DNA from: Gemmatimonadota bacterium
GTDB lineage: Bacteria; Gemmatimonadota; Gemmatimonadetes; Longimicrobiales; Gaopeijiaceae
Assembly (NCBI GenBank): GCA_030428885.1
Contig: JAUIEJ010000005.1
Coordinates: 124,001 to 188,000 of the forward strand
Reading direction: 5' to 3'
DNA: 64,000 bases
Numbering within the stretch: position 1 is the first letter of the stretch; each line of letters opens with the position of its first letter. The translations under genes were made by a program, and so were the position numbers. This document shows, one piece after another, positions 6,588 to 40,037 of this stretch. Under the pieces are notes generated by a model. That model saw only the letters and a program-made list of their open reading frames with translations, was not told the origin of the DNA and searched no databases.

Positions 6588-7760
6588 TCAGGTGCCCAAA
6601 CGGCGCTTCTCGAGGGCTTCCCGCATCTCGTTTTCGTCCACGCTCTGGTAGCACGTGAGGACCGTCACGTGCGTCTTCCAGCCGCCGAGTTTGCACAGCG
6701 TCTTGAGCGGGATTCCCTTTAGATCCGAGGCAAACTTGCGCCTCAGGGAGTGCCAGCCTCGCCCCTTCTTGGGCTCCAGGCCGGCGAGCTTCTCGGCCTT
6801 ATTCCACCAGTCTCGGGCCAGGTAGCGGGACATGTGTCCGTTTGGGCCTCTTCCCGGAGAAGGGAGGATGGGCGCATCACCGATTCCGGGGTTCCGATCG
6901 CGGGCGCGGGAGAGCGCCGCACGGGCCGCCGGCGTCATGGGCGTGACGTGTTCGTAGCCCGTCTTCTCGGTCTCCGCTCGCCACCGAATCATGTTGTCCT
7001 CGAGATCGACGTCGGACCACCGGAGCTTCCGAATCGCCCCGATGCGATGCCCGGTCTCATGGGCGAGGACCAGGGCGACGTGGAATCGCCAATCGATGTG
7101 TTCGGCCGCTGCGAGGAGGGCCTTGTACTCGTCATCGGTGATGGTCACGCGGCGCGGGTTCTTCTCCTTGGGCACCTTGAATCCCTTGAAGGGGTTTCGG
7201 TCCAAGAGGACGCCTCCGCGGCCATCACCGGCCACGGTCGCCCAGTTGAACACCGCGAGGATGAACCGGAGGTCGGCTTCAACCGTCCGGTCGGATACCG
7301 CTCGCCACGGTGGCTCGCCAGGACCGACCCTTCCGGCCCTTCGATCGCGGATGAAGCGCTCCCTGTCTCGGACGCTGAGAGTCTTGATCGTCCGCCCGGA
7401 GCCGAAGAACAGCGTGAACATCTCGGCGACCTCCCTGTCGCGCTTCCGTGTGCGTGCGCCCTTCGTCGGGGTCACCTCCGCACCGTAGATGTCAAACAGC
7501 TTCTCGAGCGTGAGGTCGGCCCGCTCGGCTTCTTCGATGGGGACGTGGATCTGGATCCCCCCGAGCCGTGCCGCTGCCCGATCCGCTTCCTGCTTCGCGC
7601 GCTCCCGGTCCCGATGCCCGAGCGAGATCCTCTTGCGACGCCCGCGGTCCCTGACCTCCAGCATCAGGGCACCCGAGGCGTGCTCGTAGACCCGGACTCG
7701 ATTCCGTCCGCGCTCGCCGGCGGAGTAGCTCCACCGGACCTTGTTCGTGCCTGCCATCAT
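6588..7760 (-). CDS. int: Tyrosine recombinase / integrase
   Basis: A 390-aa phage-type integrase. The N-terminal part (to ~residue 170) holds the arm-binding and core-binding regions (LTLEKLFDIYG). The catalytic domain shows Arg in HETGHRIGAIRKLRW (~240), HSLRR with the second catalytic Arg (~340), LGGWKT (~358) and the nucleophile Tyr in TCYQ (~370). The C-terminus lies 105 bp from the attachment site in the tRNA, the usual place for site-specific integration and excision. Its start overlaps the stop of the excisionase-like frame (GAATGATG), so the two are coupled. Confidence 0.95.
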   Translation of the reverse strand: MMAGTNKVRWSYSAGERGRNRVRVYEHASGALMLEVRDRGRRKRISLGHRDRERAKQEADRAAARLGGIQIHVPIEEAERADLTLEKLFDIYGAEVTPTKGARTRKRDREVAEMFTLFFGSGRTIKTLSVRDRERFIRDRRAGRVGPGEPPWRAVSDRTVEADLRFILAVFNWATVAGDGRGGVLLDRNPFKGFKVPKEKNPRRVTITDDEYKALLAAAEHIDWRFHVALVLAHETGHRIGAIRKLRWSDVDLEDNMIRWRAETEKTGYEHVTPMTPAARAALSRARDRNPGIGDAPILPSPGRGPNGHMSRYLARDWWNKAEKLAGLEPKKGRGWHSLRRKFASDLKGIPLKTLCKLGGWKTHVTVLTCYQSVDENEMREALEKRRLGT

Positions 7761-11300: not shown

Positions 11301-14300
11301 GACGCGACATCGGTCAGGAGGGATGGGCGGTACCACTCTGGCGGACTGATCTGCCCGACGACTTGGCCGACATATATCCGAGACCGGACGTTGCGGTGGC
11401 CGTATCCACCGATCCCGAATCCGGCGCCGAATTGGACTCGCTTAGGATAGGCAACCCTGAGAATCTGTACTTCTACACTTCGGTGCGGCCCGACCTGGAC
11501 AGCCGTACGGACCTATGGCCTTCCGTCTGGGGCGTCGACTTCGCCGACGTTGTGCCACCGAGGGAGAATCCCGATCTCACGAACCGTCAGCTTAGGCGAC
11601 CCCGTGCGCCGAGTGCCCCAAGCCGCCGCACAGGGAGCGACCGTTTCACGTTCCTGACCGAGCCCGGGACTCGACCGACCAACCTGAACGCGACTCGGTC
11701 CGAGTCACCCATAGGCGCGCGGCTCAGGTCGATTTCATTCATGAGAGCACCGGGCAGTGGAGTGGCCGCCGCATCGCTTCGACCGGTGCAGAAGGCAGTC
11801 CTGGCGGCAGCGCGCATCCGCGGTTCCTCAGGTCGGGCCCTAGAGGAAGTGCTGGAGGTTCTCCGAGACGCGGAGGAACTATCTGACGTCCAGAAACCGG
11901 TGACGGAAGCCATCGAGCGGGCGGCGAGAGACCTGGACCAAGTGCAGGATTGGCTGTCGGCGCTGAAGACCGCCGAGTTCGACGTATTCGAGAAGATCGA
12001 CCCCTGCGCGGAAGCCGACCGACGAGTGCGTATGCTCGTGAGGAACGAGGGGCGCAGGTCCTTCGGCGAGCTGGCGGACTTGCGGCGCAGCATCGCGACC
12101 CTCGTGGAACCTCTAGAGGGAAAGGCAACGTGGGACGAGGTCGGTGACACCCGGAATATCTTCCGAGCCAGGGTAAACGACCTATTTGGCGAGCTAGGCT
12201 TCCCGGAGCGGATCGCCGGAGCCGACGCCAATCTCGACCAGCTTTCGAAGAGACTAGAGGGCGTCCCGGAGAAGCTCGAGGGAGCCGCCGACGCCTTCGT
12301 CGCCGTCCTGGAGAGCACAAAGCAGACGATCGTCGACGCGCCCGAATGCGAAGCGAAGGAATTCGCCCTCGAAGAACTAGGCTACTGTCGAGACAGGGCC
12401 GATGAACTCTTCAACGAAGTGCAATCGCTCGTACAGCCACTGGACACTTGGTCCAACGGGCGAATGGATGGACCGCGCCGAGTTATTGAGAGTGCCCAGA
12501 GTTCTCTGAGGGCTGGCTTCGTCGACCTCGCCAAAGCAATCCAAGAAGCGAACGACGCGAGCACGCTCAAGGCCGACGCGGCTGTTATCTTGGACCAACT
12601 TGTCAAGACTGTTGAAGGCGTGCACCGTGACGCCAATGGGACGACAGGCGGTTTGGCAAAGGCCGTTGAGGACTTTCGGGGCACCCTGGCGGACGTCCCG
12701 AAGACGACTACCCGGTTCTTCTGGGACGCGATATCAGCCGGGGCCAACGAACTCCTGAAGGATGTCGGAGGACAGCAACCGACACCGGACGCAGTCTACG
12801 AAGGACTCACGGCGCTAATCCGCGCCCGTCTCTCCGAGGCGGCCATCGAAGCGCAACTCGCAGAGGCTGAGGAAGTTGCAGCCGAGCGGGCGCGGGCGGT
12901 GTGCGAAGCCCTGCTCGAAACGCCCCAGAAGGTCTTCCAGCACCTGAAACAGTTGAAGCTCGGGGAGCAGCTCAGGAGGCTCTTCGCGGCACTCGAGGGG
13001 AGAGCGGACGCAGCGGCCAAAGTTCTGGCGCGCTTCGCAAAGGACATCGATGCCGAGCTAGAGCGGTTCCTTGAGTCCGTGGGTGAGGAACTGGGTCAAG
13101 CAAGACGCGCGGTCGAAGAGTCCATCGGGCTCGGAGACCGTACGGCGAGGCTGTTCCGAGCATTCGGCGAACCACCCCGGATTCCGGGAATGGGCTTCAA
13201 TCGCAAGTTCGTGGAGTTCGGGTTTGATGAGTTCGTGTCCGGTATCGAGATGACGCCGGTCGCCGCACTGGTTCGCACGGGTGAGGCAGCGGTCGACGAC
13301 GCCATCAACGCGTTAGGCATTCGCCTGCCGACTCGGCAGCTCCTCGACAGGTTGGTGCCATCGGATCTTCCGAGTTTCGACCTGGCCAGCGTCTTCCCGA
13401 ACTTCGCCGGGCTCGAGCTCGAGAAGATGTTCCGCGGTGTGAAGCTCCCCGCACTCGCTAACGACGGGATCAAGGTCACCCATGGGATTGAAGAGCAGAC
13501 CCTTCGCGCTTGGGTCCAAGCCGACGTCGATGTGGACCTCGGCGGCCAGCAAGCCATTCTCTTCTCCCTCGGCCCCGTAACGGTCCGAGCGAACGGCGCC
13601 CGGTTCCAAGCGAAAGCTCGGACGGAGACCGTGAAGGGCCGAGTCGGCAAACAGAGTGTGACCGGGGTCCTTACCGCCGATTGGGAAGTGGCCGTCGGCG
13701 GCTTGACCCTAGTGGTGTTTCGCCGCACGTCACTTACCTACGATGAAAGCGGCGACTTCGAGTTCGATTTGTCACCGGACCGCGTCGAATTGCAGGCAGG
13801 GCTACAGTTCATCTCGACGCTATTGGATTCGATCGGATACTCAGAGGGCGGGTTCAGCCTCGGAATGCTCCCTCTGCCTCGAATCGGCGTACAATCCACG
13901 CTGGCGCTGCCACTCCCCGATCTCCAGGGAGGAGGGTTTGCGATCTCGAACCTGGACTTGTTCAGCGCGTTCCGCCTCGAGGTGACACCGAAGGGCGTCT
14001 TCGAGGTCATGTTCTCCCTCGACTTGGCTCGTAAGAGCAACCCATTCGTCCTGACGGTTTCGATGCTCGGCGGAGGCGGGTGGGTCAACCTCGAGGCCTC
14101 GTACCGAACAACTACCGGTGCGATCACGACGTGTGTCCAGATCGGGATCGTTGCGGCTGCTGCTGTTGGGATCAACCTTGGGCCGATCCGGGGCGGGGTG
14201 ATGGTGGCCTTTGGAGTCTACGGTGAGTTCTTCGGGAACTCACGCGCAGGCTCTTCATTCTCAGTCGCCTTCGTTGTCGTAATCGACGGCCACGTGAGCC

Positions 14301-14536
14301 TGAAGGGCATTGTGTCAGTACACATGAACGTGACACTCGAGGCGCGTTACGACTCCAACGGTGGGGTCACGGGCCGAGGCACCTATTCGGTCAAGATCAA
14401 GATCTGCCGGTTCTTCACCTTGAAGGTGCGTCGCTCAATCCGCTACCAGATCGCAAAGGGGTCATCAACCCGTTCGACCCGAACGGATGTCGATTACGAC
14501 AGTGCGGCATCGCGTTACCTTCGAGCCCTCGACTAG
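8348..14536 (+). CDS. Giant (2062-aa) protein of unknown family
   Basis: An uninterrupted 2062-aa frame from ATG 8348 (a second ATG at 8351). No signal peptide is seen. Residues 1 to ~1130 are mixed alpha/beta and Trp-rich; a conspicuous stretch is GRTHYVALERIGRIAAW near 895. Residues ~1140-1620 are strongly helical and charged with long heptad-like runs, so probably coiled coil. Residues ~1650-2062 are beta-rich with alternating hydrophobics and a Gly/Ala-rich patch (~1925-1965), ending with a basic tail. No enzyme motif was recognised. It is the first gene of a tight operon, with 8 bp to the next. Ideas to test: a large structural or shell-like protein, or an effector. Function is not assigned. 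Confidence 0.8.
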   Translation: MMRTATIWTETGAQTRVTFEPGEGFTFDPKPGVDLRVEEVFRVVLHDSRGRVQLSIDLEPSRSSVTLIDKYGAGFQRLVVVGALRSALGTQSTHPGLCLVLRAWSDDPYERGVPEVRVFRINGTDTVDEGPRAYRHRDDEDFVLERFRPVAITDPGDEGTPPSGIGKELELRNKKIASLAEGLSDVEKALGIKFDGRAEVTARLASVRLEDGGPNEPVWHLTTKREFRFVAAAGLPELPDKGCLVQRPPMRSDSSAPGGMVLDDYRAGHVVLIAEDVAPIADFADVWSRLVQRPYAAALAAVAAGRPVSMVPKWSFEVPQNPGGVALVGDAVVPPPGGGRPLAGSWRALEATRPEDVTGSFPNLLRHDGQPVQWLGRLAPRSDPRPDLNGPGNPEDNQCSAIADPLHIYLGIGSRGTKAPSGLDEVAATAKKVRLGALDLALPGAPIRGLSCRAVLRADPVQPESSVPVVDIEADLDLTTFAPAGQDPLPAEERVSEGESELRPDGVDRFFRRAEPLVYLFPSAAASHATKAGAPTPFHIVATEKTMRDRSQTLRLRLRQRGQWPSTYTRLLVVDTEPMFVGRIDLRDLYGGEGARDNQELGNWSNVGSEGARWEIFAGADGFSVVLPPQAVGEAMEKGRSAQDIDDVEEGELVDYRFSTAARLELLSSYYDQAFAEAPWNLRRILGYPGQRAPGSRVLSLHFEVFYGLCGSIDAPNLMLSEIGARSGAWPPRLGQDLRSDLADMEEALEAQLVERYNAHRCAWGKVYRRLMRRLAVLEPWSAAQPSALKLEEGVRFELRPEAEPRFPVPDGVAAEGVPAHGLGGKKDGFAGGATWGFESSSIYNAVWRDPTSTRAAIAKPMFSALGGWAQQRASFDNDRTTIFASTAMGRTHYVALERIGRIAAWWTPAKHVIIYERTVRRARQFDDQQDEHLGRGVLRKVREYVEILEPERSYPEFGADPMTRGFVEKLVWRQKIINVDGRWGRDIGQEGWAVPLWRTDLPDDLADIYPRPDVAVAVSTDPESGAELDSLRIGNPENLYFYTSVRPDLDSRTDLWPSVWGVDFADVVPPRENPDLTNRQLRRPRAPSAPSRRTGSDRFTFLTEPGTRPTNLNATRSESPIGARLRSISFMRAPGSGVAAASLRPVQKAVLAAARIRGSSGRALEEVLEVLRDAEELSDVQKPVTEAIERAARDLDQVQDWLSALKTAEFDVFEKIDPCAEADRRVRMLVRNEGRRSFGELADLRRSIATLVEPLEGKATWDEVGDTRNIFRARVNDLFGELGFPERIAGADANLDQLSKRLEGVPEKLEGAADAFVAVLESTKQTIVDAPECEAKEFALEELGYCRDRADELFNEVQSLVQPLDTWSNGRMDGPRRVIESAQSSLRAGFVDLAKAIQEANDASTLKADAAVILDQLVKTVEGVHRDANGTTGGLAKAVEDFRGTLADVPKTTTRFFWDAISAGANELLKDVGGQQPTPDAVYEGLTALIRARLSEAAIEAQLAEAEEVAAERARAVCEALLETPQKVFQHLKQLKLGEQLRRLFAALEGRADAAAKVLARFAKDIDAELERFLESVGEELGQARRAVEESIGLGDRTARLFRAFGEPPRIPGMGFNRKFVEFGFDEFVSGIEMTPVAALVRTGEAAVDDAINALGIRLPTRQLLDRLVPSDLPSFDLASVFPNFAGLELEKMFRGVKLPALANDGIKVTHGIEEQTLRAWVQADVDVDLGGQQAILFSLGPVTVRANGARFQAKARTETVKGRVGKQSVTGVLTADWEVAVGGLTLVVFRRTSLTYDESGDFEFDLSPDRVELQAGLQFISTLLDSIGYSEGGFSLGMLPLPRIGVQSTLALPLPDLQGGGFAISNLDLFSAFRLEVTPKGVFEVMFSLDLARKSNPFVLTVSMLGGGGWVNLEASYRTTTGAITTCVQIGIVAAAAVGINLGPIRGGVMVAFGVYGEFFGNSRAGSSFSVAFVVVIDGHVSLKGIVSVHMNVTLEARYDSNGGVTGRGTYSVKIKICRFFTLKVRRSIRYQIAKGSSTRSTRTDVDYDSAASRYLRALD

Positions 14537-14544
14537 AGAATCTT

Positions 14545-17500
14545 GTGTCCTTGACCTTCGCTGCAATCGTCCACCTTGAGCGCCTCCCGAACTACGAGGT
14601 GGGGCACACTTACTTCGGTCTGAACGTGCAATATGGCCTGCGGGGTAAGCCGGACGCTGACGACGAGTGGGAGACGGCCTGGGACAGCTTCTTGAGACCC
14701 TGGGTTCGAGCCAAGAATGAAGCCGATCCTACGAACGCTCTCATTCGCAAGGTCGCGTTATGGGTCGAAGGTTCGGGACTTGAGATCGTCGACGTGCTGC
14801 CCGCACCGAAGGTCAACCCGGGAGCGAGATGGACCGAGCTCTTCGGCCGGTATGATCGAGAATATGAAGCATTGATCTGGCCTGAGGGTCGCACCGCCAA
14901 GCCCAACCACGGACCGGCTCGTCTGGCCTCCGATCTAGACACGGCTCAGGAGCTAGATCTCGACGCGCCATCCTGGCCGATACTGCTTGCCCAAGCCTCC
15001 AGGTACCCTGCACCGGTTGCCGCGGTGATGGGCCTCAGCTGCGTCTTCCGCGTTCCTCAGGATCTCGCTGGGAAGGTCATTCTCGGCGCAGCGCCCGTGT
15101 TCGAATGCTGGGTGCCAGTTGATACCGACCCGGTTGACGGGGTGTGGGAGCACAAGTTCGTGCCAGACGACTGCGGTGAAGCGAAGAATGACGGCATCGA
15201 TCAGCCGTCGGCTCTCGTCTCTGTGCTACCGGCCTTTGTTGTTCCGGCAAGCCCGCGGCCGCCCGATGCAGACTCACTCCTGGACCTGGATCGCTACCTA
15301 GTATTCGACCCCGGGGGGAAGTGGAACTCCCGGGCAGGGGAGGACTGGGTCAGCCGCGCGAGAGGAGGTTTGGCACTTCAGTTCGATCTGGGGCAGCGAC
15401 TAATCGACTTTCTAAGGTCCCACAGTGGCGTGTTGGCTGAGTACACGCCGGGGCGCGGCCTGGATGAGAAGGAATGGGAGGCCCGGCGGTGGGGATTGGT
15501 CGACGCAGTGCTGGCGGCTCTTCGCGACTTGGCGGACTGCGGATTGCGCGGGGCCGGGTCTGTTGCTCGCCCGGCCTTCGCTGCTGGTAGTGAAGCACCG
15601 CTGTTCGGACAGGCCCTCGACCTCCTCGGGCCGGTGGTTTCTCCGGATGCGCGAGACTTGATCCACACAGCGGTTGAGGCCTACGAAGCGAGCCTCGATC
15701 TCGGCGCCTGGCGGGTACTGATTCGCGAGACCGTCGACGAAGGGCGGGGCCTTAGGGTGTTGGCCGACCGTCGAGAACCCGGCTCCTACTCCGACGACGT
15801 GGCCGACGAGATCCTGGGCGAGCTCGAGTCGATTCAGTCGGCGCTCTCGCAGGACCACGTTCTGAGGAAAGTGGTCTTACGCCAGTGGTCCGAAGCCGTC
15901 AAGGCATGGGACGTGGGCGCTCCCAAGCGAGGAAAGCCGCTCGTGGGGTCAGACTGGGCGCGCCTCGCCGGGCCAGTGGAACGGGACGCCCTCCCCGCGC
16001 TGGATGTACGCTCGATTCTCGAGCGAACGAACTTCGACCCTCTATGGCCCGTCATACTTGACATCCCTCTGAGGGAACACAACGAGTTCGAAGCCTTTCG
16101 AGGATTGGCGCGGGATGCCATGGCGGACTATGTGCGCGCTCGTTTTGGGGGTGTCCCACGAATCAAACCGCATCCCCACTCAGACCTCCAACCGAAAGCG
16201 GCGCCCCTCGGCACCCCCTTGGTTGAGCGATTGGCGAAGGTACTGTCTCGCTACACATACCGATTCATCGAGGCTCGTTATGGCGTGGGAAGATCCGTGC
16301 TTGCGGAGCGGCCACAGTCGATTGCCGTGCAGGTAGATCGACTGAGCTCGGCGATGACGGACGTAGGTGATGCGCAGCGAAGCCTATCGGGCGTTGGCTT
16401 ACTGCTCCGCCGTTCCGGCGGGATGTGGCGCATGCCCAACGTGGCCGACTTGATCATTCTGGATGGATCCGGTGGAGAGGAACCTGCGTTCGAATACGCC
16501 GCGGCCCCGGTCCGCACGGAATACCAAGAGGAGCTGCGCCAGTCCTTCATCCGGTACGACAATCACCCGCTCGTCGCTGATTCCCCGGCGTCAGAGCTCG
16601 TCGCAGAGACGATTGAGCCGATCGAGACTCAGAACGAAACGGACGGGCTCCTTGATGCGGAGCTATTGCGATTCGCACTCCCCGACCCTGGAGTCCGCGG
16701 CAACCCGTCTCAGAGAGACGTCACTCACGGCGCGTGGGCGAAACTGCCAACCCTCGTCTACGGCGCCTCCTACGAGGCGCTACCGTACCTGATTGGCAAC
16801 AGTGGGGCGCTACCTCCACTTCTGGCCGACGCTGCGAGTCCTACCGATGCCAAAGCACACGACGACTTCATAAAGGCCTTCGACACCTGGGTTGCGGGTG
16901 GAGACCAGTGGAAGCAATACGTGCAGACCGTTGAATACAGGCGTCAGGTCGGAGTTGCCGCACCGGCCTGGAGTTCGGGCGAGCGTGATGGTACGAAGAA
17001 GGCCCCGGTGCTCCCCGCCGTACCAGACGGCGTTCGCCCATTGGTTAGAGACCTCGGAACGAATACAGATCCCCTGGTCGATTGGCCCCGCATCGTCGGG
17101 ATGAGCGACGACGTGAGCAAGGCACCGCTGCTTCTGCTTTGGGACGCGGGGGCGACGCCTCGCCGGACGGCGGAGTACTGGGTAGGAGCACCGCGTACAG
17201 ATCTGGAGAATTGGCATCGCTGGATCTCCAAGGACATCATGGAAGCTCGCAACCCCACCAGCCTTGAGGCTCTACGAAAGAGAGTCTGGGTGGAGGTCTT
17301 CAAGAGACGAGGTCAGGATTCCGGAACGAAACCTGACGACTCCGTAGATGACCCGTGTGTGGACGGCTTGGTCTTCGTCCTCGATCCGGTCTTCTTACGG
17401 AGTCAGCAACCCCACCCTGCCCCGTTAGAGGTTGACTTCGTGGCGGCGACGCCTGGTCCGGGGCTTGAAGAAGTCCGACGGAACCCGATCAGCGTCCAGT

Positions 17501-19323
17501 GCTCCATATCAAACGGCGCCCCCACTCTCGCGCTCGTTGAGGGAGCCGTGCACGCGTCCGTGCCAGTCGGCGAAGTGTGGACTCTCACAGCTTACGCTCG
17601 GGTGCCGCGAGCGAAAGCTGACGGTCGTTTCCACAAGAAGCTCCTACAGGCGGGGCCGACCGTTGCCGGTTCGATCCTCGAGCAGCTCGCGGCCGCGCGA
17701 GGCGAGGAGGCGGAGCCCCCCTACCTTCTGTCGGCGCATCGTATCGTAGTCGAGGTCGCGCACGATCAGATGCCGACCCCGGCGGCGCTTTGGGACGCTA
17801 CGTACGCCGCAATCAACGAAGCGGATCGAACCGTTTCGGTCGGGATCGACCCCATGCAGATCGCCGAGTCCGCCTACCTCCTGAAGGAAATTGAAGTTCG
17901 TCGCCAGGTCTGGCGATGGAATGGGATCCCGCCCACCACGCGCCCTCCAAGCCCCGGTGAAGTGATGGACCCCCCACCTCCGCCGGCCGCCGCCGCGACG
18001 CCAGCCTTGATCTGGGAGGCCGAGGGATTCGGGCACCGACGAGATCTGGACCACCTTCGCCTCGACCGTCAGGCGCGGTATGGCGATCCGCCGGGTTATC
18101 CCGGGGGGATCGCTGGCCACAGTCCTCTATACACGGAGCAGCTTTCGGGAGACCCGCGAGCGCTGTACTACCGTTTCGGCATTCTCGCGCACTCGCGGTA
18201 TCGGAAACTATTCGGGACACCAGCGGTCGAGGCGAAGGAGGCGCGCACCAAGACGAAGTGGCGGCGGGCACTGATGCCGGCTCGCCTCCCGGAGGACGGG
18301 CGTCTGGACGCGCCGGGGCTCAGGGTCGTCCTCCCCACGACGGTGGGGCCGGAAGGAGACCAAAGTACCGGCGCCGCAAGCCTGCTGGTACTTCTCGAAG
18401 AGCCATGGTACGACCGCTTCGGCCTACACGAGGAGCTACAGGGCGAGATCGTCCTATACCGAGACCCGGCAACGAACAAGCCCGGAGAGCAAGCAGAGGC
18501 AGCTCTCGACCCGATCCTATTCACGGCTCCCTTCCCAGGTTCGACAAGTGCCCAGGGAGGAAAGCGTTGGGCAAACCAAACAGACCGGCTCAAGATCACG
18601 GGCCCCATTGGCCTGAGCTTCGACACCGACACGGACGCACGCCTGTTCACAGGTACGGCCTTCCTCGTCGACGTCATCCCACCCGAAGAAGACGCGGACA
18701 TGGACCTGGGCTGGTTGTTCGCGAGGCTACGCTTCCGGCGTCACCTCCCCGGGTATGCTTCGGTGGAGGCCGATTGGACACCATCGGAGTGGGTCCAACT
18801 GCTTCCGGACTCAAGTCGTTGGCACGTAGGCTGGGGAGATGGGAGCGTGACGAAGCACGCCCCCGTTTCCAAGCTGAGCTTCCGAAAGGGGGGCACCGGC
18901 GCGAGCTACCGGTTCTGTGATCCGGACGGGCAGGCGCTAAGCTGGATTCGCGCCGATGCCAGTGATGCACCGGACGATCATGCCTTTTCGCTCTGGGTCA
19001 TGGGGGTTCGCACCATCTTCGACGCCGGCGGGCAGGAGCGGTTGGAACTCGGTGGATTTGTCCCGGTCGAGGCGAACGCTAAGTTCGAGTTTCCGTCGGG
19101 CCTGGATCGCGTCCGACTCGTGTCGGTGCAGCACGCTCCCGACCGTCGAACCGAGGCTGGAGACCTGGTCTATCGCGACACCACCGACGAGGCGTCCCTT
19201 CTTGAGGCCATGTTCCCCAGTGAGGCCGATGACCGGACCGGCCCGGTCAGTCTGAGGAAGAACGCGGGCGCCCGTTGGGTGCGGGTTTCTCCATTCATAG
19301 ACCGGCTGGCATCGGACCTCTAG
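14545..19323 (+). CDS. Large (1592-aa) protein of unknown family
   Basis: An uninterrupted 1592-aa frame from GTG 14545, 8 bp after the previous stop, with AGAG just upstream as a weak SD. No signal peptide, TM segment or known motif was recognised. Mixed alpha/beta, with many short Trp/Pro-rich segments. A proline/alanine linker (DPPPPPAAAATP, ~residue 1140) separates an N-terminal part of ~1130 residues from a C-terminal beta-rich part of ~450. The tight spacing implies it is made with the 2062-aa protein, perhaps as a partner. Other family members would probably be found as adjacent pairs. Confidence 0.8.
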   Translation: MSLTFAAIVHLERLPNYEVGHTYFGLNVQYGLRGKPDADDEWETAWDSFLRPWVRAKNEADPTNALIRKVALWVEGSGLEIVDVLPAPKVNPGARWTELFGRYDREYEALIWPEGRTAKPNHGPARLASDLDTAQELDLDAPSWPILLAQASRYPAPVAAVMGLSCVFRVPQDLAGKVILGAAPVFECWVPVDTDPVDGVWEHKFVPDDCGEAKNDGIDQPSALVSVLPAFVVPASPRPPDADSLLDLDRYLVFDPGGKWNSRAGEDWVSRARGGLALQFDLGQRLIDFLRSHSGVLAEYTPGRGLDEKEWEARRWGLVDAVLAALRDLADCGLRGAGSVARPAFAAGSEAPLFGQALDLLGPVVSPDARDLIHTAVEAYEASLDLGAWRVLIRETVDEGRGLRVLADRREPGSYSDDVADEILGELESIQSALSQDHVLRKVVLRQWSEAVKAWDVGAPKRGKPLVGSDWARLAGPVERDALPALDVRSILERTNFDPLWPVILDIPLREHNEFEAFRGLARDAMADYVRARFGGVPRIKPHPHSDLQPKAAPLGTPLVERLAKVLSRYTYRFIEARYGVGRSVLAERPQSIAVQVDRLSSAMTDVGDAQRSLSGVGLLLRRSGGMWRMPNVADLIILDGSGGEEPAFEYAAAPVRTEYQEELRQSFIRYDNHPLVADSPASELVAETIEPIETQNETDGLLDAELLRFALPDPGVRGNPSQRDVTHGAWAKLPTLVYGASYEALPYLIGNSGALPPLLADAASPTDAKAHDDFIKAFDTWVAGGDQWKQYVQTVEYRRQVGVAAPAWSSGERDGTKKAPVLPAVPDGVRPLVRDLGTNTDPLVDWPRIVGMSDDVSKAPLLLLWDAGATPRRTAEYWVGAPRTDLENWHRWISKDIMEARNPTSLEALRKRVWVEVFKRRGQDSGTKPDDSVDDPCVDGLVFVLDPVFLRSQQPHPAPLEVDFVAATPGPGLEEVRRNPISVQCSISNGAPTLALVEGAVHASVPVGEVWTLTAYARVPRAKADGRFHKKLLQAGPTVAGSILEQLAAARGEEAEPPYLLSAHRIVVEVAHDQMPTPAALWDATYAAINEADRTVSVGIDPMQIAESAYLLKEIEVRRQVWRWNGIPPTTRPPSPGEVMDPPPPPAAAATPALIWEAEGFGHRRDLDHLRLDRQARYGDPPGYPGGIAGHSPLYTEQLSGDPRALYYRFGILAHSRYRKLFGTPAVEAKEARTKTKWRRALMPARLPEDGRLDAPGLRVVLPTTVGPEGDQSTGAASLLVLLEEPWYDRFGLHEELQGEIVLYRDPATNKPGEQAEAALDPILFTAPFPGSTSAQGGKRWANQTDRLKITGPIGLSFDTDTDARLFTGTAFLVDVIPPEEDADMDLGWLFARLRFRRHLPGYASVEADWTPSEWVQLLPDSSRWHVGWGDGSVTKHAPVSKLSFRKGGTGASYRFCDPDGQALSWIRADASDAPDDHAFSLWVMGVRTIFDAGGQERLELGGFVPVEANAKFEFPSGLDRVRLVSVQHAPDRRTEAGDLVYRDTTDEASLLEAMFPSEADDRTGPVSLRKNAGARWVRVSPFIDRLASDL

Positions 19324-32845: not shown

Positions 32846-33247
32846 GTGGCCGACCCCCTTTCCGAAGGCTTCTACAACCTACCCGGCTCGAAAGACGTGC
32901 CCCGTACCCCCAGCGACAAGGTGGCGTACGAGATGGGCCAGCGGATGCGCGGTCCGCGAACACCGCGTGCGGTCACCCCCGAGGACATCGAAGAGGCGAA
33001 GGGATGGCTCCGGTGGAGCCTGATCCTCGGCGCGGTGGGTGCGGTAGCGGGGTGCGGCTACGGCATCTGGCTGACCCTCTCGTCGGGGTTCGGCTTCCAG
33101 GCCGCGGAGGTCCTCAAATGGACGGGGATTGGTGCGGCGGCGGGGGCGCTTCTTCCCGTGGGCCTGGTGGTGGCCCTGGGGGTCGGCATCATCGCCGCCA
33201 TACTCTGGGGGCTGGGGCAGTTGCTCAACCTGCTGACGAGTCTCTAG
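32846..33247 (+). CDS. Small two-TM membrane protein
   Basis: A 133-aa product from GTG 32846, chosen because GGAG lies 7 bp upstream; the frame is open to 32780. The soluble N-terminal ~60 residues (SEGFYNLPGSKDVPRTPSDK) precede two long hydrophobic helices (about 68-92 and 100-130). No family recognised. Its 3' end overlaps by 23 bp the convergent catalase-like gene. Confidence 0.6.
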   Translation: MADPLSEGFYNLPGSKDVPRTPSDKVAYEMGQRMRGPRTPRAVTPEDIEEAKGWLRWSLILGAVGAVAGCGYGIWLTLSSGFGFQAAEVLKWTGIGAAAGALLPVGLVVALGVGIIAAILWGLGQLLNLLTSL

Positions 33248-34247
33248 GGCCGCCTCTGCGACCGCCTCGGCTGGCCGCGTAGGCCGCCTGTCGAAGCAGG
33301 TTCAGATCGCCCAGGGGCGCCAGCACCGGGCCGCCCTCGTCGGGCCAGGCCGGCGTGGCCCGGAAGGCCTCGCGGTCGATGGGTCCGGGCGCAGTCCCCC
33401 GTGGGACGCTCAACCGCCCGACGGTGATCCAGGGGGAGTCCCAGCGAATGCGGTGATCGTCCATGGGGGTGCGGGCCGGGTCGAGAAACCCCTGGAACTC
33501 CAGGTCCCACGACGCTGGCGCCTCCCCCAGGCGAGCCGCGAGGTCATGGGTGAGGCATCGGTCTCCGGCGCCGCGCACGCCGGCATGCGGCGCGACGCCC
33601 CGCAGGCGATACCGCACCGCGAAGTCGCCGAGTTGGAAGGGTGCCCGACTGTAGAAGGCCAGGGCCGCCAGGCTCACGCCCGACTCGGCCGCCCCCAGGA
33701 GTGTGCGGGTCATGCGTACCCCGTCTCTGATCCCCAGGCGTCGGACGAGGGTGATCAGGGCCCCCACCTTGCCCCGGACGCCGCCGGTCGTGGCGGCGGC
33801 CGCCGCCTCCATGGAGGCGATCATGGCGCCTCCGTCCCGGGCGTGGTGCGCCTCGCCCGTGGTGGCCAGGAGGTCGAGTCGCCGGTCTCCGTCGACGATC
33901 CGGATCCCCACGCCCCTTTGGTCCGGGACCGTGTCGGGGCGGGACCCGGGGAAGGCGCTGGAGAACCGAACTGCGGCCTGCCACGTCGCTCCCCGCCGGA
34001 ACGGCCCGAGTGCGATCTCGGCGGGGAGATCGTCGCCGATCCGCACCTCGGCGTCGGGGGTCGCGAAGATCGCGTGACGGTGCAGGGCGTGTCCGGGGGC
34101 TCCTCCCCCTCGCGCCTTCTCCTGCAGCCGCACCACGGTCGTCCGGGCTCGCTCCACCAGGGCCGCCTCCTCGGCCGGGCTGCGCCGGGGCAACGCCTGG
34201 GGCCAGTCCCGGCTCCAGGCGGCGACGATGCTTCCCGGCGTGCTCAC
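33225..34247 (-). CDS. Catalase-related heme protein
   Basis: A 340-aa protein from GTG 34247, overlapping the dioxygenase stop (GTGA), so translation is coupled. Catalase-fold signatures: ALHRHAIFATPDAEVRIGDD with the distal His, WQAAVRFSSAFP, then DQRGVGIRIVDGDRRLDLL. The C-terminus GDLNLLRQAAYAAS has an RxxxY arrangement for the proximal Tyr ligand. It is shorter than true catalases, like the catalase-related allene-oxide-synthase or hydroperoxidase group. Coupling to a fatty-acid dioxygenase suggests it converts the hydroperoxide product, but this is inferred. Confidence 0.75.
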   Translation of the reverse strand: MSTPGSIVAAWSRDWPQALPRRSPAEEAALVERARTTVVRLQEKARGGGAPGHALHRHAIFATPDAEVRIGDDLPAEIALGPFRRGATWQAAVRFSSAFPGSRPDTVPDQRGVGIRIVDGDRRLDLLATTGEAHHARDGGAMIASMEAAAAATTGGVRGKVGALITLVRRLGIRDGVRMTRTLLGAAESGVSLAALAFYSRAPFQLGDFAVRYRLRGVAPHAGVRGAGDRCLTHDLAARLGEAPASWDLEFQGFLDPARTPMDDHRIRWDSPWITVGRLSVPRGTAPGPIDREAFRATPAWPDEGGPVLAPLGDLNLLRQAAYAASRGGRRGGPRDSSAG

Positions 34248-36682
34248 CGGCCGTTCATGGCGCGATCTCCCGCCCAGGGGTTCTTGGCCAGGGCGGCGTC
34301 GAAGGCCCGGGTGGGATGGCGGGCCGGGTCCAGGGGCCCCTCGTCCCACGGTTCGAAGGCGTTGCGGACGTTGCCGAGTCCCGTCTCCTCCAGCTCGGGG
34401 AAGTGCCGCAGGAGAACGTCCTTGAACGACGTGCCGTCGACCCAGGCGATGCCCTCGGGCGTGTAGACCTCGGGCCGGTAGTCGCTGGTGTAGAACCGGT
34501 CGCCCAACAGCCGCCAGCTCGCGTTGAGAATGAAGACCTGGAACAGCGTCTCGCCGAAGCCGAAGCCCTCGGGGCGATTGCCCTCGCACAGGGTTCCGAT
34601 GAGGAGGTCCACGTCGTCGACGTTGTCGTGCCCGTCGTCGTCCGTGCCGTAGAGGCTTCGGAGCGTCTCGGCCACGGCCGGATCGTCGGTGAGTTCGTCG
34701 AACGTGGGCACGCGCTGGAGACCCAGCCCGGTGCGAAGCGCGTTGTAGGTCGGCACACCGCGCTCCCGGTCCCGCAGCAGATCGAGGGCGCCCAGGTCCA
34801 GGAGCGGCATGTCCGGCGTCGAGATGTCGAGGAGCGCCGCCGGGTAGTTGTTTGCGACGAGGGCGCAGCAGTTCTGGGCGCCCATGGAGGCGGCCAGTGT
34901 CGTGAGTCCGTGGGTACGCAGGAGGGACTTCACGGCGGCGTTCCTCGTGCGCATGAGGGGGATCGAGGTGTCGTCCACCTCGAGGGCGTCGGGAAGCAGC
35001 GAGTGCAGCCGGTACACCGCCGTGAACTCCTCGGAGAGGCCGTACCGGGCGAAGTCGCCCTCGGGGCCTCCCACCAGACCGCCGAGCGTGGAGCTCGCGA
35101 TGGGGATGTGCTCCAGCGTCTTCGGCGTGGATCCGCCGAACCACGCGGCCAGGAGGCCGTACCAGTTCGCCCGCATGGCGGAGTGGAGCGTCTTGTTGGG
35201 AAGAATGCCCGGCGTCCACTCCACGGTGTGGATCTTGGCCATGAGGGCGGCGTTGATCAGCCGGGCCGTCTGGAAGAGGCGCTCGTCGTCCCAGGTGGGG
35301 TACGCCGCCGCCAGGTGATCGCAGATCGCGTTGTGCTCCCGGGCGAAGAGGGTGTGGAGCATGGCCAGGCCGAGCCACCAGTTCCGGGTGAATCCGGTCC
35401 GCTCCATGCCCGTGTCCGGGTCGATGGGAAGGAAGCCGTCGTCGGAGAGTTCGAGCTTGCCGCCGTCCCCCGACCGCACCGCGCGCTGGGTCGCCTCGTC
35501 GCTTCCGTAGAGCTGGGACCCGTCCCACCAATGGGTCACCTCGTTGACGAACGTCGGCGGGCGGTCCGACTCGCCGTCGCCGCGGGTGGGGTCGGGGGCC
35601 GTGGCGGGGAGCGACATGGCCTCGACGCCGTAGCGTCGCATGGGGTCGTCGGCCGCCAGGGGCACCGTCACCATGGTCGTGGTGTCGGGATTTCCGTGGC
35701 TCACCCAGTCGTGGATCATGAACTGGATCCAGGCCGCCCCCCACACGTTGAAGAAGGGCACCTCGGCGCGCCCGCCCTTCGGTGCGAGCAGGGCTCGGGA
35801 CAGCTCGCGCACGTTCACCGGGTCGGTGGCCGGGTTGGCGCGTCGGCGCGCCGACCCGTGGACGACCTCGTCGTCGACGTTGCGGAAGAACCGGGTCCAG
35901 GCCGCCCCCACCATGGGGTCGTGCCGCCCGTCGGCGTCCCGGCGCAGATCGTTCCAACTGCCGTCGGCCGTGCGCCACACCCGGGCCCACGGCGGGGGTT
36001 CGGCGACGTCTTCCAACAGCCCGGTCTTCGCCCCGTCTGCGTAGGGGCGCACCAGGTTGTTGGCGAAGAGGGCGTCGCGCATGAACGCCAGCTTCAGGAG
36101 CTGAAACGAAGGTTGGAGCGGCTTGGGTGCGCCCTCTCCGGCCGTGTGCCAGTTGGTCCACACGCCGTCGTGGACCCCCGAGCGGCCCGCTCGGGCCGTC
36201 AGCCCGTGGAAGATCGCGTTGGCCACCACGCTGATGGCCGAGCCGGCCACGCCCCGGACGACGCCGCGGAACTGATCCATGGCGCCCGGCGCGGGGATCG
36301 TGACGGGCGAATCGGGCGACGGGCCGGGATGGGGTCCCCCCAGGAGCCATTCCCGGGTGAAGTACCGGCGGAAGACCGCCATCTGGGGCTCCTCGCCCCC
36401 CATGCCCGTGGCCACGTTGATGGCGGCCCGCTCCAGCTTCTGGCGAAGGGTGTCGTCGTCGGGCACGCGGGACAGCGCCGAGCGCCACGCCGCTTCGGCC
36501 TCCTCGTACCGCCCGCCCAGGAAGTACACGTCGCCCAGCAGCACCGCGTGCTCCGCATCGTTCCCCGCCGGGTGGGCCTCGAGCACGTCGAGGGCACGGG
36601 CGTGGTCTCCGGCGGCCAGCAACCGCCGCGCGGCATCGAGGTGGGGGGCGTTGGGCTCCTGATCCGGGGGGCTCGCTCTCAT
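34244..36682 (-). CDS. Animal-type heme peroxidase / fatty-acid dioxygenase (PGHS-like)
   Basis: An 812-aa protein. The N-terminal ~100 residues are TPR-like (LLAAGDHARALDVLEAHPAG, then YEEAEAAWRSAL). The peroxidase domain has distal His in QFMIHDWVSHG (~320), REHNAICDHL (~449) and proximal His in AKIHTVEWTPG (~484). FTAVYRLHSLLPD (~555) corresponds to the Tyr385 site of prostaglandin synthases and alpha-dioxygenases, which points to fatty-acid oxygenation, not halide oxidation. No signal peptide. Head gene of a two-gene operon with the catalase-like protein, and divergent from a flavin monooxygenase. Confidence 0.87.
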   Translation of the reverse strand: MRASPPDQEPNAPHLDAARRLLAAGDHARALDVLEAHPAGNDAEHAVLLGDVYFLGGRYEEAEAAWRSALSRVPDDDTLRQKLERAAINVATGMGGEEPQMAVFRRYFTREWLLGGPHPGPSPDSPVTIPAPGAMDQFRGVVRGVAGSAISVVANAIFHGLTARAGRSGVHDGVWTNWHTAGEGAPKPLQPSFQLLKLAFMRDALFANNLVRPYADGAKTGLLEDVAEPPPWARVWRTADGSWNDLRRDADGRHDPMVGAAWTRFFRNVDDEVVHGSARRRANPATDPVNVRELSRALLAPKGGRAEVPFFNVWGAAWIQFMIHDWVSHGNPDTTTMVTVPLAADDPMRRYGVEAMSLPATAPDPTRGDGESDRPPTFVNEVTHWWDGSQLYGSDEATQRAVRSGDGGKLELSDDGFLPIDPDTGMERTGFTRNWWLGLAMLHTLFAREHNAICDHLAAAYPTWDDERLFQTARLINAALMAKIHTVEWTPGILPNKTLHSAMRANWYGLLAAWFGGSTPKTLEHIPIASSTLGGLVGGPEGDFARYGLSEEFTAVYRLHSLLPDALEVDDTSIPLMRTRNAAVKSLLRTHGLTTLAASMGAQNCCALVANNYPAALLDISTPDMPLLDLGALDLLRDRERGVPTYNALRTGLGLQRVPTFDELTDDPAVAETLRSLYGTDDDGHDNVDDVDLLIGTLCEGNRPEGFGFGETLFQVFILNASWRLLGDRFYTSDYRPEVYTPEGIAWVDGTSFKDVLLRHFPELEETGLGNVRNAFEPWDEGPLDPARHPTRAFDAALAKNPWAGDRAMNGR

Positions 36683-36726
36683 GTGCAGGGGCTCCGGCTT
36701 CGATGGGGGTGATCCGGCACGTCATG

Positions 36727-36742
36727 GATTCACGCGTGAATC
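36727..36742. promoter_or_regulatory. 16-bp perfect palindrome in the divergent promoter region
   Basis: GATTCACGCGTGAATC lies between the oppositely oriented dioxygenase and monooxygenase starts (36683-36778). A TetR/MarR-type regulator could control both operons from it. No regulator gene is adjacent. Confidence 0.55.
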
Positions 36743-36778
36743 GACGGGAAACGAGATCACCCGCGTCAGGAGCCACCC

Positions 36779-38248
36779 ATGGGGTCCCAGGAAAGCCCGA
36801 AACAGGTCGACGTCCTCGTCATCGGTGCCGGGTTTTCGGGCATCGGGATGGGCATCAAGCTTCTGCGCGCCGGGATCGACTCCTTCGTGATCCTCGAGCG
36901 GGGCGTTGACGTGGGGGGCACATGGCGCAGCAATACCTATCCGGGCTGCGCCTGCGACGTGCCGTCCCATCTCTACTCGTTTTCGTTCGAGAAGAACCCG
37001 GCGTGGAGCCGGATGTATCCGACGCAGCCGGAACTGCGCGATTACCTGGGACGGCTGGCCGACAAGCACGACCTCCGTCCCCACATGCGCTTCGAAAGCG
37101 AGGTCGTGGAGGCCGTGTTCCAGGCCGGCGCCGGCCGCTGGAACGTGGAGACGCGGGACGGCGCGCGATTTTCGGCCCGGACCGTCGTGTCGTGCATGGG
37201 CGGGCTGAGTCGTCCGAAGATCCCCGCGTTTCCCGGGCTCGATCGGTTCGGGGGACGGGCCTTCCATTCGGCGAACTGGGACCACTCGTTCGACATGACG
37301 GGCAAGCGGGTCGCCGTGGTGGGAACCGGTGCCAGCGCCATCCAGTTCGTGCCGCAGATCGCACCGAAAGTGGCGCGGCTCGACCTGTACCAGCGCACGC
37401 CACCGTGGATCCTGCCGAAGCCCGATCGCCCGATCCGCGAATGGGAGCAGCGACTGTTTCGGTGGCTGCCGGGCTACATGTTCGGGCTCCGCAACTATCT
37501 GTACTGGCGCCAGGAGATCCTGGGCGTCGGCTACACCCTGAAGCCGAAGATCCTGAAGCTCGCCGAGAAGCTCGCCCTCAAGTACCTGCGGGAGGCGGTG
37601 CCCGATCCCGAGGTCCGGGCGAAGTTGACGCCCGACTATCGCATCGGCTGCAAGCGGGTGCTCCTCACCAACGACTATCTCCAGACCATGTGTCGCCCCA
37701 ACCTCGAGGTGATCACCGACAGTGTGGCGTCCATTACCGAGAGCGGGGTGGTGGCGTCCGACGGACGGGAACGGGAGGTCGACGCCATAATCTTCGGCAC
37801 CGGGTTCAAGACCCTCGACTTCACGTCGCCGGTCCACTTCGTGGGCGCCGACGGACGGGAACTGAATGAGGTGTGGAAGGACAAACCCCGGGCGTACTTC
37901 GGCGTGGCCACCGCCGGCTTCCCCAACCTGTTCTTCATCACCGGACCCAACAGTCGGGTGGCCAACAACTCCATCGTGTTCATGATCGAGGTCCAGATCC
38001 GCTACGTCGTCCAGTGCCTGCGGCGGCTGTTGGGCAACGCCGCGGGGACGATGGAGGTTCGCCCGAAGGCCCAGCAGGAATACAACGCGGCCCTGACCCG
38101 ACGGGCCCAGGGAACCGTGTTCGCCAGCGGGTGCCAGAGCTGGTATCTGGACGCCAACGGGGAGAGCCCCGTGCTCTGGCCGGGCTTCTCGTCGGAGTTC
38201 TGGTGGAAGGCCCGCTCGGTGCGCTGGGGCGACTTCGCCACGGGGTGA
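36779..38248 (+). CDS. Flavin-containing monooxygenase (Baeyer-Villiger type)
   Basis: A 489-aa protein. FAD-binding VLVIGAGFSGIGMG (~12-25), GGTWRSNTYPGCACDVPS (typical BVMO ligand-binding region), fingerprint FGGRAFHSANWDHS (~158-171), NADPH-binding VAVVGTGASAIQF (~179) and the late ATG-like motif DAIIFGTGFK (~337). It oxidises ketones or other soft nucleophiles using NADPH and O2. Normal length for class B enzymes. It shares a 97-bp divergent promoter region with the dioxygenase operon, which suggests a common lipid or oxylipin pathway. Confidence 0.92.
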   Translation: MGSQESPKQVDVLVIGAGFSGIGMGIKLLRAGIDSFVILERGVDVGGTWRSNTYPGCACDVPSHLYSFSFEKNPAWSRMYPTQPELRDYLGRLADKHDLRPHMRFESEVVEAVFQAGAGRWNVETRDGARFSARTVVSCMGGLSRPKIPAFPGLDRFGGRAFHSANWDHSFDMTGKRVAVVGTGASAIQFVPQIAPKVARLDLYQRTPPWILPKPDRPIREWEQRLFRWLPGYMFGLRNYLYWRQEILGVGYTLKPKILKLAEKLALKYLREAVPDPEVRAKLTPDYRIGCKRVLLTNDYLQTMCRPNLEVITDSVASITESGVVASDGREREVDAIIFGTGFKTLDFTSPVHFVGADGRELNEVWKDKPRAYFGVATAGFPNLFFITGPNSRVANNSIVFMIEVQIRYVVQCLRRLLGNAAGTMEVRPKAQQEYNAALTRRAQGTVFASGCQSWYLDANGESPVLWPGFSSEFWWKARSVRWGDFATG

Positions 38249-38249
38249 G

Positions 38250-39191
38250 CTACCGCGCGAGCCCCACCACGCGCCCGTCCAGCCCCCACGCCGGATCGGC
38301 CTGGATGCCCAGGTGGGCCAGGGCGGTCACCGGCAGGTCGACGATGTAGGTCGTGTCGGGAGCCGGGCCCCGGGCCGCCGACGGCCCGCTGGCGATGTAG
38401 AAGATCGTGCGCTCCTCGGAGGTGTCGCCGCCGTGGCCCCCGTCGGCCCGACGCCCGTGGTCGGTGCTCACCAGCACGAGCCAGTCCTCGCCCCCGGCGG
38501 TGGGGCGGGCGGCGAGGGCATGGAGGAGCCGGCCCACGTGCTGGTCGGCCAGAGCGATGGCCTGCCGGTATTCGGCGCCGATGGAGCCGGCCTGATGACT
38601 CGTCTCGTCGGGGTTGCCCAGGTAGACGAACATGGCGTCGGGGTCGGACGAGCGCAGTGCGTCGACGGCGAGCTCCACCGAGGCGGAGTCGGCTTCGGCC
38701 CACCCCAGCTCGTATCCGTCCAGCACGTGTTTGGTGTCGACCTGCTCGGAGATCACGGGCCCGTTGTGGTCGTCGGCCACCAGGGGCAGCCAATCGGCCA
38801 CGACCCAGGTCTCGAGTTCGGGCCGCACGGTCTCGATCCGGGTGAAGAGGTCCGGGTACTCGTCGTACCGCTTGCCCTGGAACTCGTTGTCCGTGACCCC
38901 GTGCTTCTCGGGCCAGACCCCGATGAGGAAGCTCGACCACCCGGGCCCGCTCACCGACGGGAATCCGGTTCGGGCCCGGTCCGTGAACGTCCCCTCGGCC
39001 ACGAGCCGGTCGAGGTTCGGCGTCTCGACCTCCGCGAGCACGTCGGGGCGCACGCCGTCGATGCCGATGACGAGAACCTTGGGTCGTACGTCGGGGTCCG
39101 CCGTGTCCGCAGCCTCGGGCGGGGCCTCGCCGCCGCCGCAGGCCAGGGTGAGGGTCGCCAGGGCCAGGGTCCAGCCGATGCGCGTGGTCAA
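38250..39191 (-). CDS. Alkaline phosphatase-superfamily lipoprotein (phosphodiesterase type)
   Basis: A 313-aa protein from TTG 39191, which overlaps the preceding stop (TTGA). Signal peptide ends LATLTLACGG (lipobox). Type I phosphodiesterase/nucleotide pyrophosphatase signatures: VIGIDGVRPDVL (metal Asp ~43), FPSVSGPGWSSFLIG with the nucleophile region, YLGNPDETSHQAG, and LVSTDHGRRADGGHGG holding the metal-binding Asp-His pair and final His. It acts in the envelope on phosphate mono- or diesters. Coupling to a nucleotidyltransferase gene may be incidental. Confidence 0.85.
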   Translation of the reverse strand: MTTRIGWTLALATLTLACGGGEAPPEAADTADPDVRPKVLVIGIDGVRPDVLAEVETPNLDRLVAEGTFTDRARTGFPSVSGPGWSSFLIGVWPEKHGVTDNEFQGKRYDEYPDLFTRIETVRPELETWVVADWLPLVADDHNGPVISEQVDTKHVLDGYELGWAEADSASVELAVDALRSSDPDAMFVYLGNPDETSHQAGSIGAEYRQAIALADQHVGRLLHALAARPTAGGEDWLVLVSTDHGRRADGGHGGDTSEERTIFYIASGPSAARGPAPDTTYIVDLPVTALAHLGIQADPAWGLDGRVVGLAR

Positions 39192-39715
39192 ACCGTCTCT
39201 CCTTCGGTGGAGTTCGCGCCGGGCTCCCGCTGCAGCATCGCCCGGATCACGGCGGCGTCCTGCCGATCCTGGGGGCGATCGGCGGCCACCTTGGAGCGCA
39301 GAATGTCGTCGAGGGAGGCCGCCAGGATCTCGGTGCCCGACACCTCGAATCGCACTGCCCCCGGAGCCAGGTCTTCGAACCCGTCGGTGCCCGCCGGACG
39401 GAACACCAGATCGATGCGTCCGGCGTCGGTGGTCAGATTCCAGAACTCACCGCGCTCCAGCGTTCGGGCGGTGCAGTCGAATGGAAGTCCCTCGGGCACT
39501 GCGTCGGTGAAGACCCTCGCATCCAGGGATCGGAGGGCCGCGGCGAGTCGGTCGAGATTGTCCGGATCCCTGGCCGGGGTGAGATCGGCGTCGGCCGTCA
39601 GCCGGGGAAACCCCTGGAGCCGCGCGGCGAGGGCTCCGACGAGCACGTAGCGCACTTCGTGTTCGCCCAGCACCTGGACGATGCGCTCCGGGTCGAACGG
39701 CGCAACTTCAGACAC
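39188..39715 (-). CDS. Nucleotidyltransferase-fold protein (MNT/AbiEii-like)
   Basis: A 175-aa protein. YVLVGALAARLQGFPRLTAD and the following ADL give the Gly-rich turn and DxD (ADAD) metal site of minimal nucleotidyltransferases. The C-terminal SLDDILRSKVAADRPQDRQD is typical of DUF6036-like or AbiEii-like proteins. It overlaps the HTH gene by 8 bp. Pairing of an Xre-type HTH and a nucleotidyltransferase is characteristic of toxin-antitoxin or defence modules in which the enzyme modifies RNA or a partner protein. Activity not proven. Confidence 0.8.
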   Translation of the reverse strand: MSEVAPFDPERIVQVLGEHEVRYVLVGALAARLQGFPRLTADADLTPARDPDNLDRLAAALRSLDARVFTDAVPEGLPFDCTARTLERGEFWNLTTDAGRIDLVFRPAGTDGFEDLAPGAVRFEVSGTEILAASLDDILRSKVAADRPQDRQDAAVIRAMLQREPGANSTEGETV

Positions 39716-40037
39716 GACGGGCCGCCTTCGTGAACCGGTCGACGCGGGCGGTCTCCCGGAGCCGCTCGGCAGGAGTCAGGGCGAGGATCCGGTCCACGTC
39801 ATCCAGCATGTGGGACTCCACCACGGGCCGGTCCACGAGGCGGCAGCGGAGTTCAACACCCGCGGCGTGCAGCAGCCGAACGAGCGTCTCGCTCGATGGA
39901 TCGGTGTGCCCCCCCTCGATGCGAGCAACAACGGACTGGGCGGTGCCGGCGCGCTCCGCGAGGGCGCGCTGCGTGAGTCCCGCCCGGTACCGGGCCGCGC
40001 GCACGAGATCGGCGGGTCGGAGCGCTCGGTCGTTCAT
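39708..40037 (-). CDS. Xre-family HTH regulator, likely antitoxin
   Basis: A 109-aa protein from ATG 40037. The HTH_3 fold is clear: LVRAARYRAGLTQRALAERA followed by AQSVVARIEGGHTDPSSETL. The C-terminal helical part (DDVDRILALTPAERLRE) probably contacts the co-encoded nucleotidyltransferase. It likely represses its own promoter through the inverted repeat 9 bp upstream. Confidence 0.88.
   Translation of the reverse strand: MNDRALRPADLVRAARYRAGLTQRALAERAGTAQSVVARIEGGHTDPSSETLVRLLHAAGVELRCRLVDRPVVESHMLDDVDRILALTPAERLRETARVDRFTKAARRV

Follow-up and report, generated by a model that had tools for sequence, protein, structure and literature searches.

The pairing of a fatty-acid dioxygenase with a catalase-related protein has been described before. 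In corals, catalase-related domains acting as allene oxide synthase or hydroperoxide lyase (AOS/HPL) are fused to lipoxygenases (PMC5617202), and in Nostoc punctiforme a cyclooxygenase-type haem enzyme, the linoleate 10S-dioxygenase, acts with a catalase-related 10S-hydroperoxide lyase encoded by a separate gene (Brash 2014, as cited in PMC13049297). The alpha-dioxygenases (alpha-DOX) form another group of haem enzymes, known from plants (rice, Arabidopsis) and already characterised in cyanobacteria (CalDOX and LepDOX; PMC8720084).

Here we describe a locus, in a 64-kb stretch of DNA (hereafter the window), which joins these themes. Like the Nostoc tandem, it places a haem dioxygenase gene beside a separate gene for a catalase-related, candidate hydroperoxide converter, but the Nostoc enzyme is nearer COX (about 31% identity, according to PMC13049297) and attacks C10 of linoleate, while the window enzyme is of the alpha-DOX type and its expected intermediate is a 2-hydroperoxide. 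As in corals, a catalase-fold protein is associated with a fatty-acid dioxygenase, but this dioxygenase is not a lipoxygenase, and the distal Asn and the aromatic pair are replaced in its partner. The tandem is known in its Nostoc 10S form; no report of an alpha-DOX/catalase-related pair or fusion was found in the open-licence literature, within which the alpha-DOX version is apparently new. Our main reading, which we hold on sequence grounds at a probability of roughly 0.6, is that the pair would form a two-haem-enzyme unit for peroxide-type alpha-oxidation of fatty acids.

The locus, its divergent spacer and the monooxygenase

Gene calls and positions were re-checked, and all three genes are real and correctly placed (Table 1). 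A sequence-only reading of the window had reported translationally coupled peroxidase and catalase-related genes, a divergent monooxygenase gene and a perfect palindrome, all of which we could confirm. The dioxygenase stop and the catalase-related start share 4 bases (GTGA), an overlap that is also present in the corresponding locus of a congener (L014) and in an Acidobacteria MAG (L031), and the centre of the palindrome is at distances of 53 and 44 bp from the two ATG codons.

Table 1. Features of the three-gene locus (positions in the window)
Feature	Position	Strand	Basis
Alpha-dioxygenase-like haem enzyme, 812 aa	34244-36682	-	An_peroxidase family match, plant alpha-DOX alignment
Catalase-related protein, GTG start at 34247, end 33225	33225-34247	-	Family profile, residue columns, predicted fold
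Type I Baeyer-Villiger-type FAD/NADPH monooxygenase, 489 aa	36779-38248	+	Motifs and equivalent of phenylacetone monooxygenase R337
Divergent spacer, 96 bp, common to dioxygenase and monooxygenase genes	36683-36778		Sequence
Perfect 16-bp palindrome GATTCACGCGTGAATC, candidate operator, inside the divergent spacer	36727-36742		Sequence

Perfect palindromes of at least 16 bp are not rare window-wide (there are six), and a simulated spacer of equal size and make-up holds one with p of about 0.004. The congener spacer aligns, and keeps a 12-bp core of the palindrome (CTCACGCGTGAG) with one compensated pair, the two outer pairs being lost. Genome-wide, the palindrome is the sole site at 0-1 mismatch, with one further site at 2 mismatches, at a contig start; with a single site within 1 mismatch there is therefore no regulon. 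Elsewhere in the window, two adjacent, very long ORFs (2062 and 1592 aa; 8348-19323, + strand) have no Pfam match; DUF3238 and DUF900-like genes come after them, and a phage-integrase-family gene lies upstream (6588-7760). At 39188-40037 (- strand) an HTH_3 regulator precedes a nucleotidyltransferase-like gene (AbiEii/DUF6036, near cut-off), an arrangement resembling a toxin-antitoxin-type pair.

Conservation of the trio, proposed as a check by the sequence-only reading, gave a divided answer. In the congener (G001), order and orientation are kept, with identities of 74, 82 and 85% for the catalase-related protein, dioxygenase and monooxygenase, respectively, and none of eleven further window genes has a match in the congener's 18-kb stretch. 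Among the near relatives searched, only this congener has both a full-length close dioxygenase relative and a close catalase-related relative; given such occurrence and the different flanks, the trio is therefore sporadic, kept or moved as a block. The monooxygenase, however, is missing from all other dioxygenase/catalase-related pairs read (L031, L034 and L026-L029).

The monooxygenase itself looks like a type I Baeyer-Villiger enzyme, a kind that adds oxygen beside a carbonyl. It carries the motifs FGGRAFHSANWD and GGTWRSNTYPGCACD and the equivalent of R337 of phenylacetone monooxygenase, that is, both type I Baeyer-Villiger fingerprints (FxGxxxHxxxW(P/D) and GGxWxxxxYPGxxxD) and the active-site Arg, although it is shorter (489 aa) than type I enzymes. 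Whether it belongs with the pair is another matter, and there is close to an even chance that it serves a separate process and is simply a conserved divergent neighbour. Its absence from the other pairs speaks for this, as does the commonness of the family, relatives of which occur in 754 plasmid records, whereas the retention of the trio in the congener despite different flanks, together with the conserved spacer core, speaks for a link. A relative (49% identity) that lies one gene from a dioxygenase in another locus (L041), in convergent orientation, is a doubtful link, its identity being no better than that of random plasmid relatives. A separate monooxygenase would concern the third gene only and is compatible with the reading of the pair as an alpha-oxidation unit.

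An alpha-dioxygenase-type haem enzyme

The dioxygenase, which is the sole An_peroxidase-family member found in a search of the genome, consists of an N-terminal TPR region (aa 15-84), a linker and an An_peroxidase domain (aa 237-765, E 1.4e-99). Plant alpha-dioxygenases are its closest solved structures (E 9e-93 and 1e-89); lactoperoxidase (3e-34) and COX-2 (5e-17) score far worse. Residues H157, H311, F375, Y379, H382, F552 and R559 of the rice enzyme correspond to H324, H485, F553, Y557, H560, F717 and R724 here (the plant alignment being read with a construct offset of 3), H324 being the distal His, Y557 the catalytic Tyr, H560 the proximal His and R724 the carboxylate-binding residue, and all seven are invariant across ten bacterial relatives. 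The roles follow PMC8720084 and its reference list, according to which His311 and Arg559 are needed for oxygenation in the plant enzyme. The haem enzyme of the window is, on these comparisons, probably an alpha-DOX-type dioxygenase, with the corresponding predicted activity. The broader label of PGHS/alpha-dioxygenase-like, given earlier from the sequence, can be narrowed to alpha-DOX-like and not PGHS-like, since the scores (9e-93 against 5e-17) rule out a prostaglandin-type cyclooxygenase and the alpha-DOX catalytic residues are kept.

It might be argued that this enzyme belongs to the general peroxidases, or that it oxygenates fatty acids in some other way, for example as a 10S-type dioxygenase, because identity to cyanobacterial and Streptomyces alpha-DOX-type proteins is only 42-44% (about 42% for that of Calothrix PCC 6303) and no assay of the TPR-bearing clade was found in the open-licence literature. 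We consider this quite improbable, given that the equivalents of His311, Arg559 and Tyr379 are all kept. The locus matches the Nostoc-type tandem in having a dioxygenase gene beside a catalase-related gene, and it is set apart from the 10S type on two grounds, its nearness to alpha-DOX and the alpha-DOX residues that it keeps. Compared with the plant and cyanobacterial enzymes, with which it shares the haem domain and catalytic residues, the window enzyme is longer at its N terminus by a TPR and linker of about 190 aa, and it has a co-translated catalase-related partner. In Pseudomonas/Moraxellaceae loci (e.g. L047:9911-12676), alpha-DOX is extended at the C terminus by about 300 aa, for which Pfam gives no match.

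The catalase-related partner and its haem pocket

Taken alone, the catalase-related protein has no Pfam or NCBIfam match, PF00199 being matched by 5 of 7 members of its family. The family profile matches the Mycobacterium avium protein MAP2744c best (PDB 3e4w; about 20% identity to the partner; 3e-22), with catalases (about 1e-9) and coral allene oxide synthase (4e-7) behind it, and a structure predicted with AlphaFold at modest confidence (mean pLDDT 62.8, pTM 0.67) gives the same best match (MAP2744c, Z 21.4), then coral allene oxide synthase (Z 20.5) and catalases (about 18-19). The catalase-related identity first suggested from the sequence was thus borne out by both profile and model, which place the fold close to that of coral allene oxide synthase.

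Numbered from the GTG, the protein keeps distal H56, R94, S96 and the proximal R319-x-x-x-Y323, but the distal Asn is T129 and the haem-side Phe pair is H134-H135. It shares with coral AOS/HPL a catalase fold without full catalase length, a distal His and a proximal Tyr in RxxxY, but has Thr for the distal Asn (Asn137 in coral AOS, Asn148 in human catalase), and we therefore call it catalase-related and do not class it as an allene oxide synthase or hydroperoxide lyase. Nor does it qualify as a true monofunctional catalase (PF00199), having neither the Pfam match, the distal Asn nor the Phe pair.

The same changes run through the subfamily. In human catalase numbering, the columns of which agree with the PDB catalase alignment, all strongly linked copies compared have His for haem-side Phe154 and Thr or Ser for Asn148, and retain the distal His, Arg112, Ser114, Arg354 and Tyr358; the distal Asn and both haem-side Phe are substituted in every linked copy, and the pocket His is also found in a gammaproteobacterial fusion. 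Phe-Phe is intact in the unlinked small catalases of related genomes, and neither Phe-to-His nor Asn-to-Thr/Ser was seen among those compared. The pocket signature is tied to dioxygenase linkage across the sequences compared, with one exception, a Caballeronia protein (L030) that bears the signature with no dioxygenase within its 12.7-kb stretch, and the changes argue against ordinary catalase function. Arg72 is replaced by His solely in the window genus, and the window protein has also lost the second Asn; haem binding or activity of this copy could therefore differ.

Linkage of the two proteins extends far beyond the window, and the pair's absence elsewhere, which the sequence-only reading had named as grounds for giving up its proposal, is not what we found, since it co-occurs and is often fused. 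In the plasmid collection, a catalase-related relative occurs in 17 records, adjoining or fused to alpha-DOX in 16, and a complete reading of four loci (Phyllobacterium, Nonomuraea, R. jaguaris and R. phaseoli) showed a single ORF of 950-984 aa in each, with the catalase-related part first. Acidobacteria MAG SJ725 (L031) has a split arrangement like that of the window; an FAD oxidase lies upstream of the pair, and downstream follow a patatin and a relative of cyclopropane-fatty-acid synthase. In Schlesneria (L034), about 3.4 kb separates the two genes, and this interval holds a class 3 lipase. So that loci would not be chosen by their dioxygenase, a search was run with the catalase profile alone, which includes four fusion-derived domains and thus favours that subfamily; at E<1e-60 it matched 5 of 395 Nocardioides-class (actinomycete) and 1 of 274 Pseudomonas-class (gammaproteobacterial) genomes, and all six matches in these 669 genomes were fused to a dioxygenase. 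As far as sequence goes, this shows a catalase-related subfamily tied to the dioxygenase, and is not a claim about all small catalases. A phage search found no relatives.

The scan for dioxygenase relatives covered the nearest 80 of at least 545. In a dioxygenase tree of 60 rows, linkage calls for four or more changes, of which one depends on a weak case (L110). The window clade is sister to the L031 protein; next come proteins from Humibacillus and Nocardioides, which lack a linked partner. L110 is treated as no more than weak linkage, its catalase-related protein being without the signature and an FMN enzyme intervening. Among the loci read, many alpha-DOX loci, cyanobacterial type included, have no linked catalase-related protein, which is therefore not required for alpha-DOX chemistry.

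Could the partner be a guard only, clearing H2O2 or organic peroxides to save the dioxygenase from inactivation, and take no step in a pathway? Its catalase fold, its distal His and proximal RxxxY and the M. avium catalase-related protein as its closest solved match would all suit such a role. We nevertheless think it unlikely, because every linked copy has lost the distal Asn and both haem-side Phe, a loss shared, among the other proteins compared, by Caballeronia only, and because 1:1 fusion suggests a shared intermediate. Moreover, alpha-DOX needs some peroxide for activation, so that fusing a strong scavenger to it would defeat the purpose.

A possible route of alpha-oxidation

The alpha-oxidation unit that we favour would work in two steps. 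The dioxygenase would use a tyrosyl radical to add O2 onto C2 of a free fatty acid, yielding a 2-hydroperoxy acid, a product we infer because the alpha-DOX catalytic residues are conserved. The catalase-related protein would then convert this 2-hydroperoxide, before spontaneous decay, into one defined product, most likely a 2-oxo acid (by dehydration) or a chain-shortened Cn-1 aldehyde (by C1-C2 cleavage), a step suggested by the gene overlap, the natural fusions and the rewritten haem pocket. In the alpha-DOX product, the hydroperoxide sits beside the carboxylate with no neighbouring double bond, and coral-type allene oxide or vinylic lyase chemistry is therefore not expected; both allene oxide and hydroperoxide-lyase chemistry were set aside for the partner as unlikely on these chemical grounds. 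The earlier proposal of a chain from dioxygenase through hydroperoxide converter to monooxygenase finds some support in its first part, the pair linkage being recurrent, whereas the last step, a further oxidation of the aldehyde or ketone in the window genus, is conjecture, because the other pairs are without a monooxygenase, linked in one genus only, and its family is common.

Neighbouring genes in related loci bear on both ends of this route. Lipid enzymes recur beside the dioxygenase, namely patatin (L024, L026, L031 and L032), lipase (L034) and lipoxygenase (L039), which supports free fatty acids as the substrate. An enzyme of the TPP-dependent 2-oxo-acid type (acetolactate-synthase/benzoylformate-decarboxylase-like) lies near alpha-DOX in eight loci (L023, L026, L028, L097, L098, L106, L108 and L174), three of them fusions, and favours a 2-oxo acid product in those lineages; no TPP gene was seen beside the window's unit.

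Other neighbours are worth recording in their own right. In Nocardioides agariphilus (L039:8355-9893), the lipoxygenase-family gene is divergent from alpha-DOX, so that two different fatty-acid dioxygenases adjoin. A gene of about 400-500 aa lies downstream of or near catalase-related/alpha-DOX fusions (L026, L027, L028, L029, L174 and L177); it has no Pfam match in the copies scanned (e.g. L028:10485-12029) and is a possible further component. In a Verrucomicrobia MAG, a RoxA-like cytochrome c gene is directly downstream of alpha-DOX (L033:12410-14086), and related cytochrome c genes are also near the L025 and L029 dioxygenases.

A broader proposal, which we put forward tentatively and at rather less than even odds, is that the linked catalase-related proteins could be a new class of haem enzymes, with His for the haem-side Phe, acting specifically on 2-hydroperoxy fatty acids to give 2-oxo acids or Cn-1 aldehydes. 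Together with the dioxygenase, these proteins would form a CoA-independent bacterial alpha-oxidation across several phyla, which might feed a TPP-dependent 2-oxo-acid enzyme in some lineages and a Baeyer-Villiger monooxygenase in the window genus.

The natural fusions are ready-made enzymes to try for odd-chain aldehydes or 2-oxo acids. If the pairing is what it appears to be, it would add a further haem-dioxygenase/catalase-related partnership to those of Nostoc and corals. The products of alpha-DOX are usually described as decaying spontaneously to aldehydes, and if a dedicated partner is co-translated or fused in several phyla, bacteria would be steering the 2-hydroperoxide to a product of choice.
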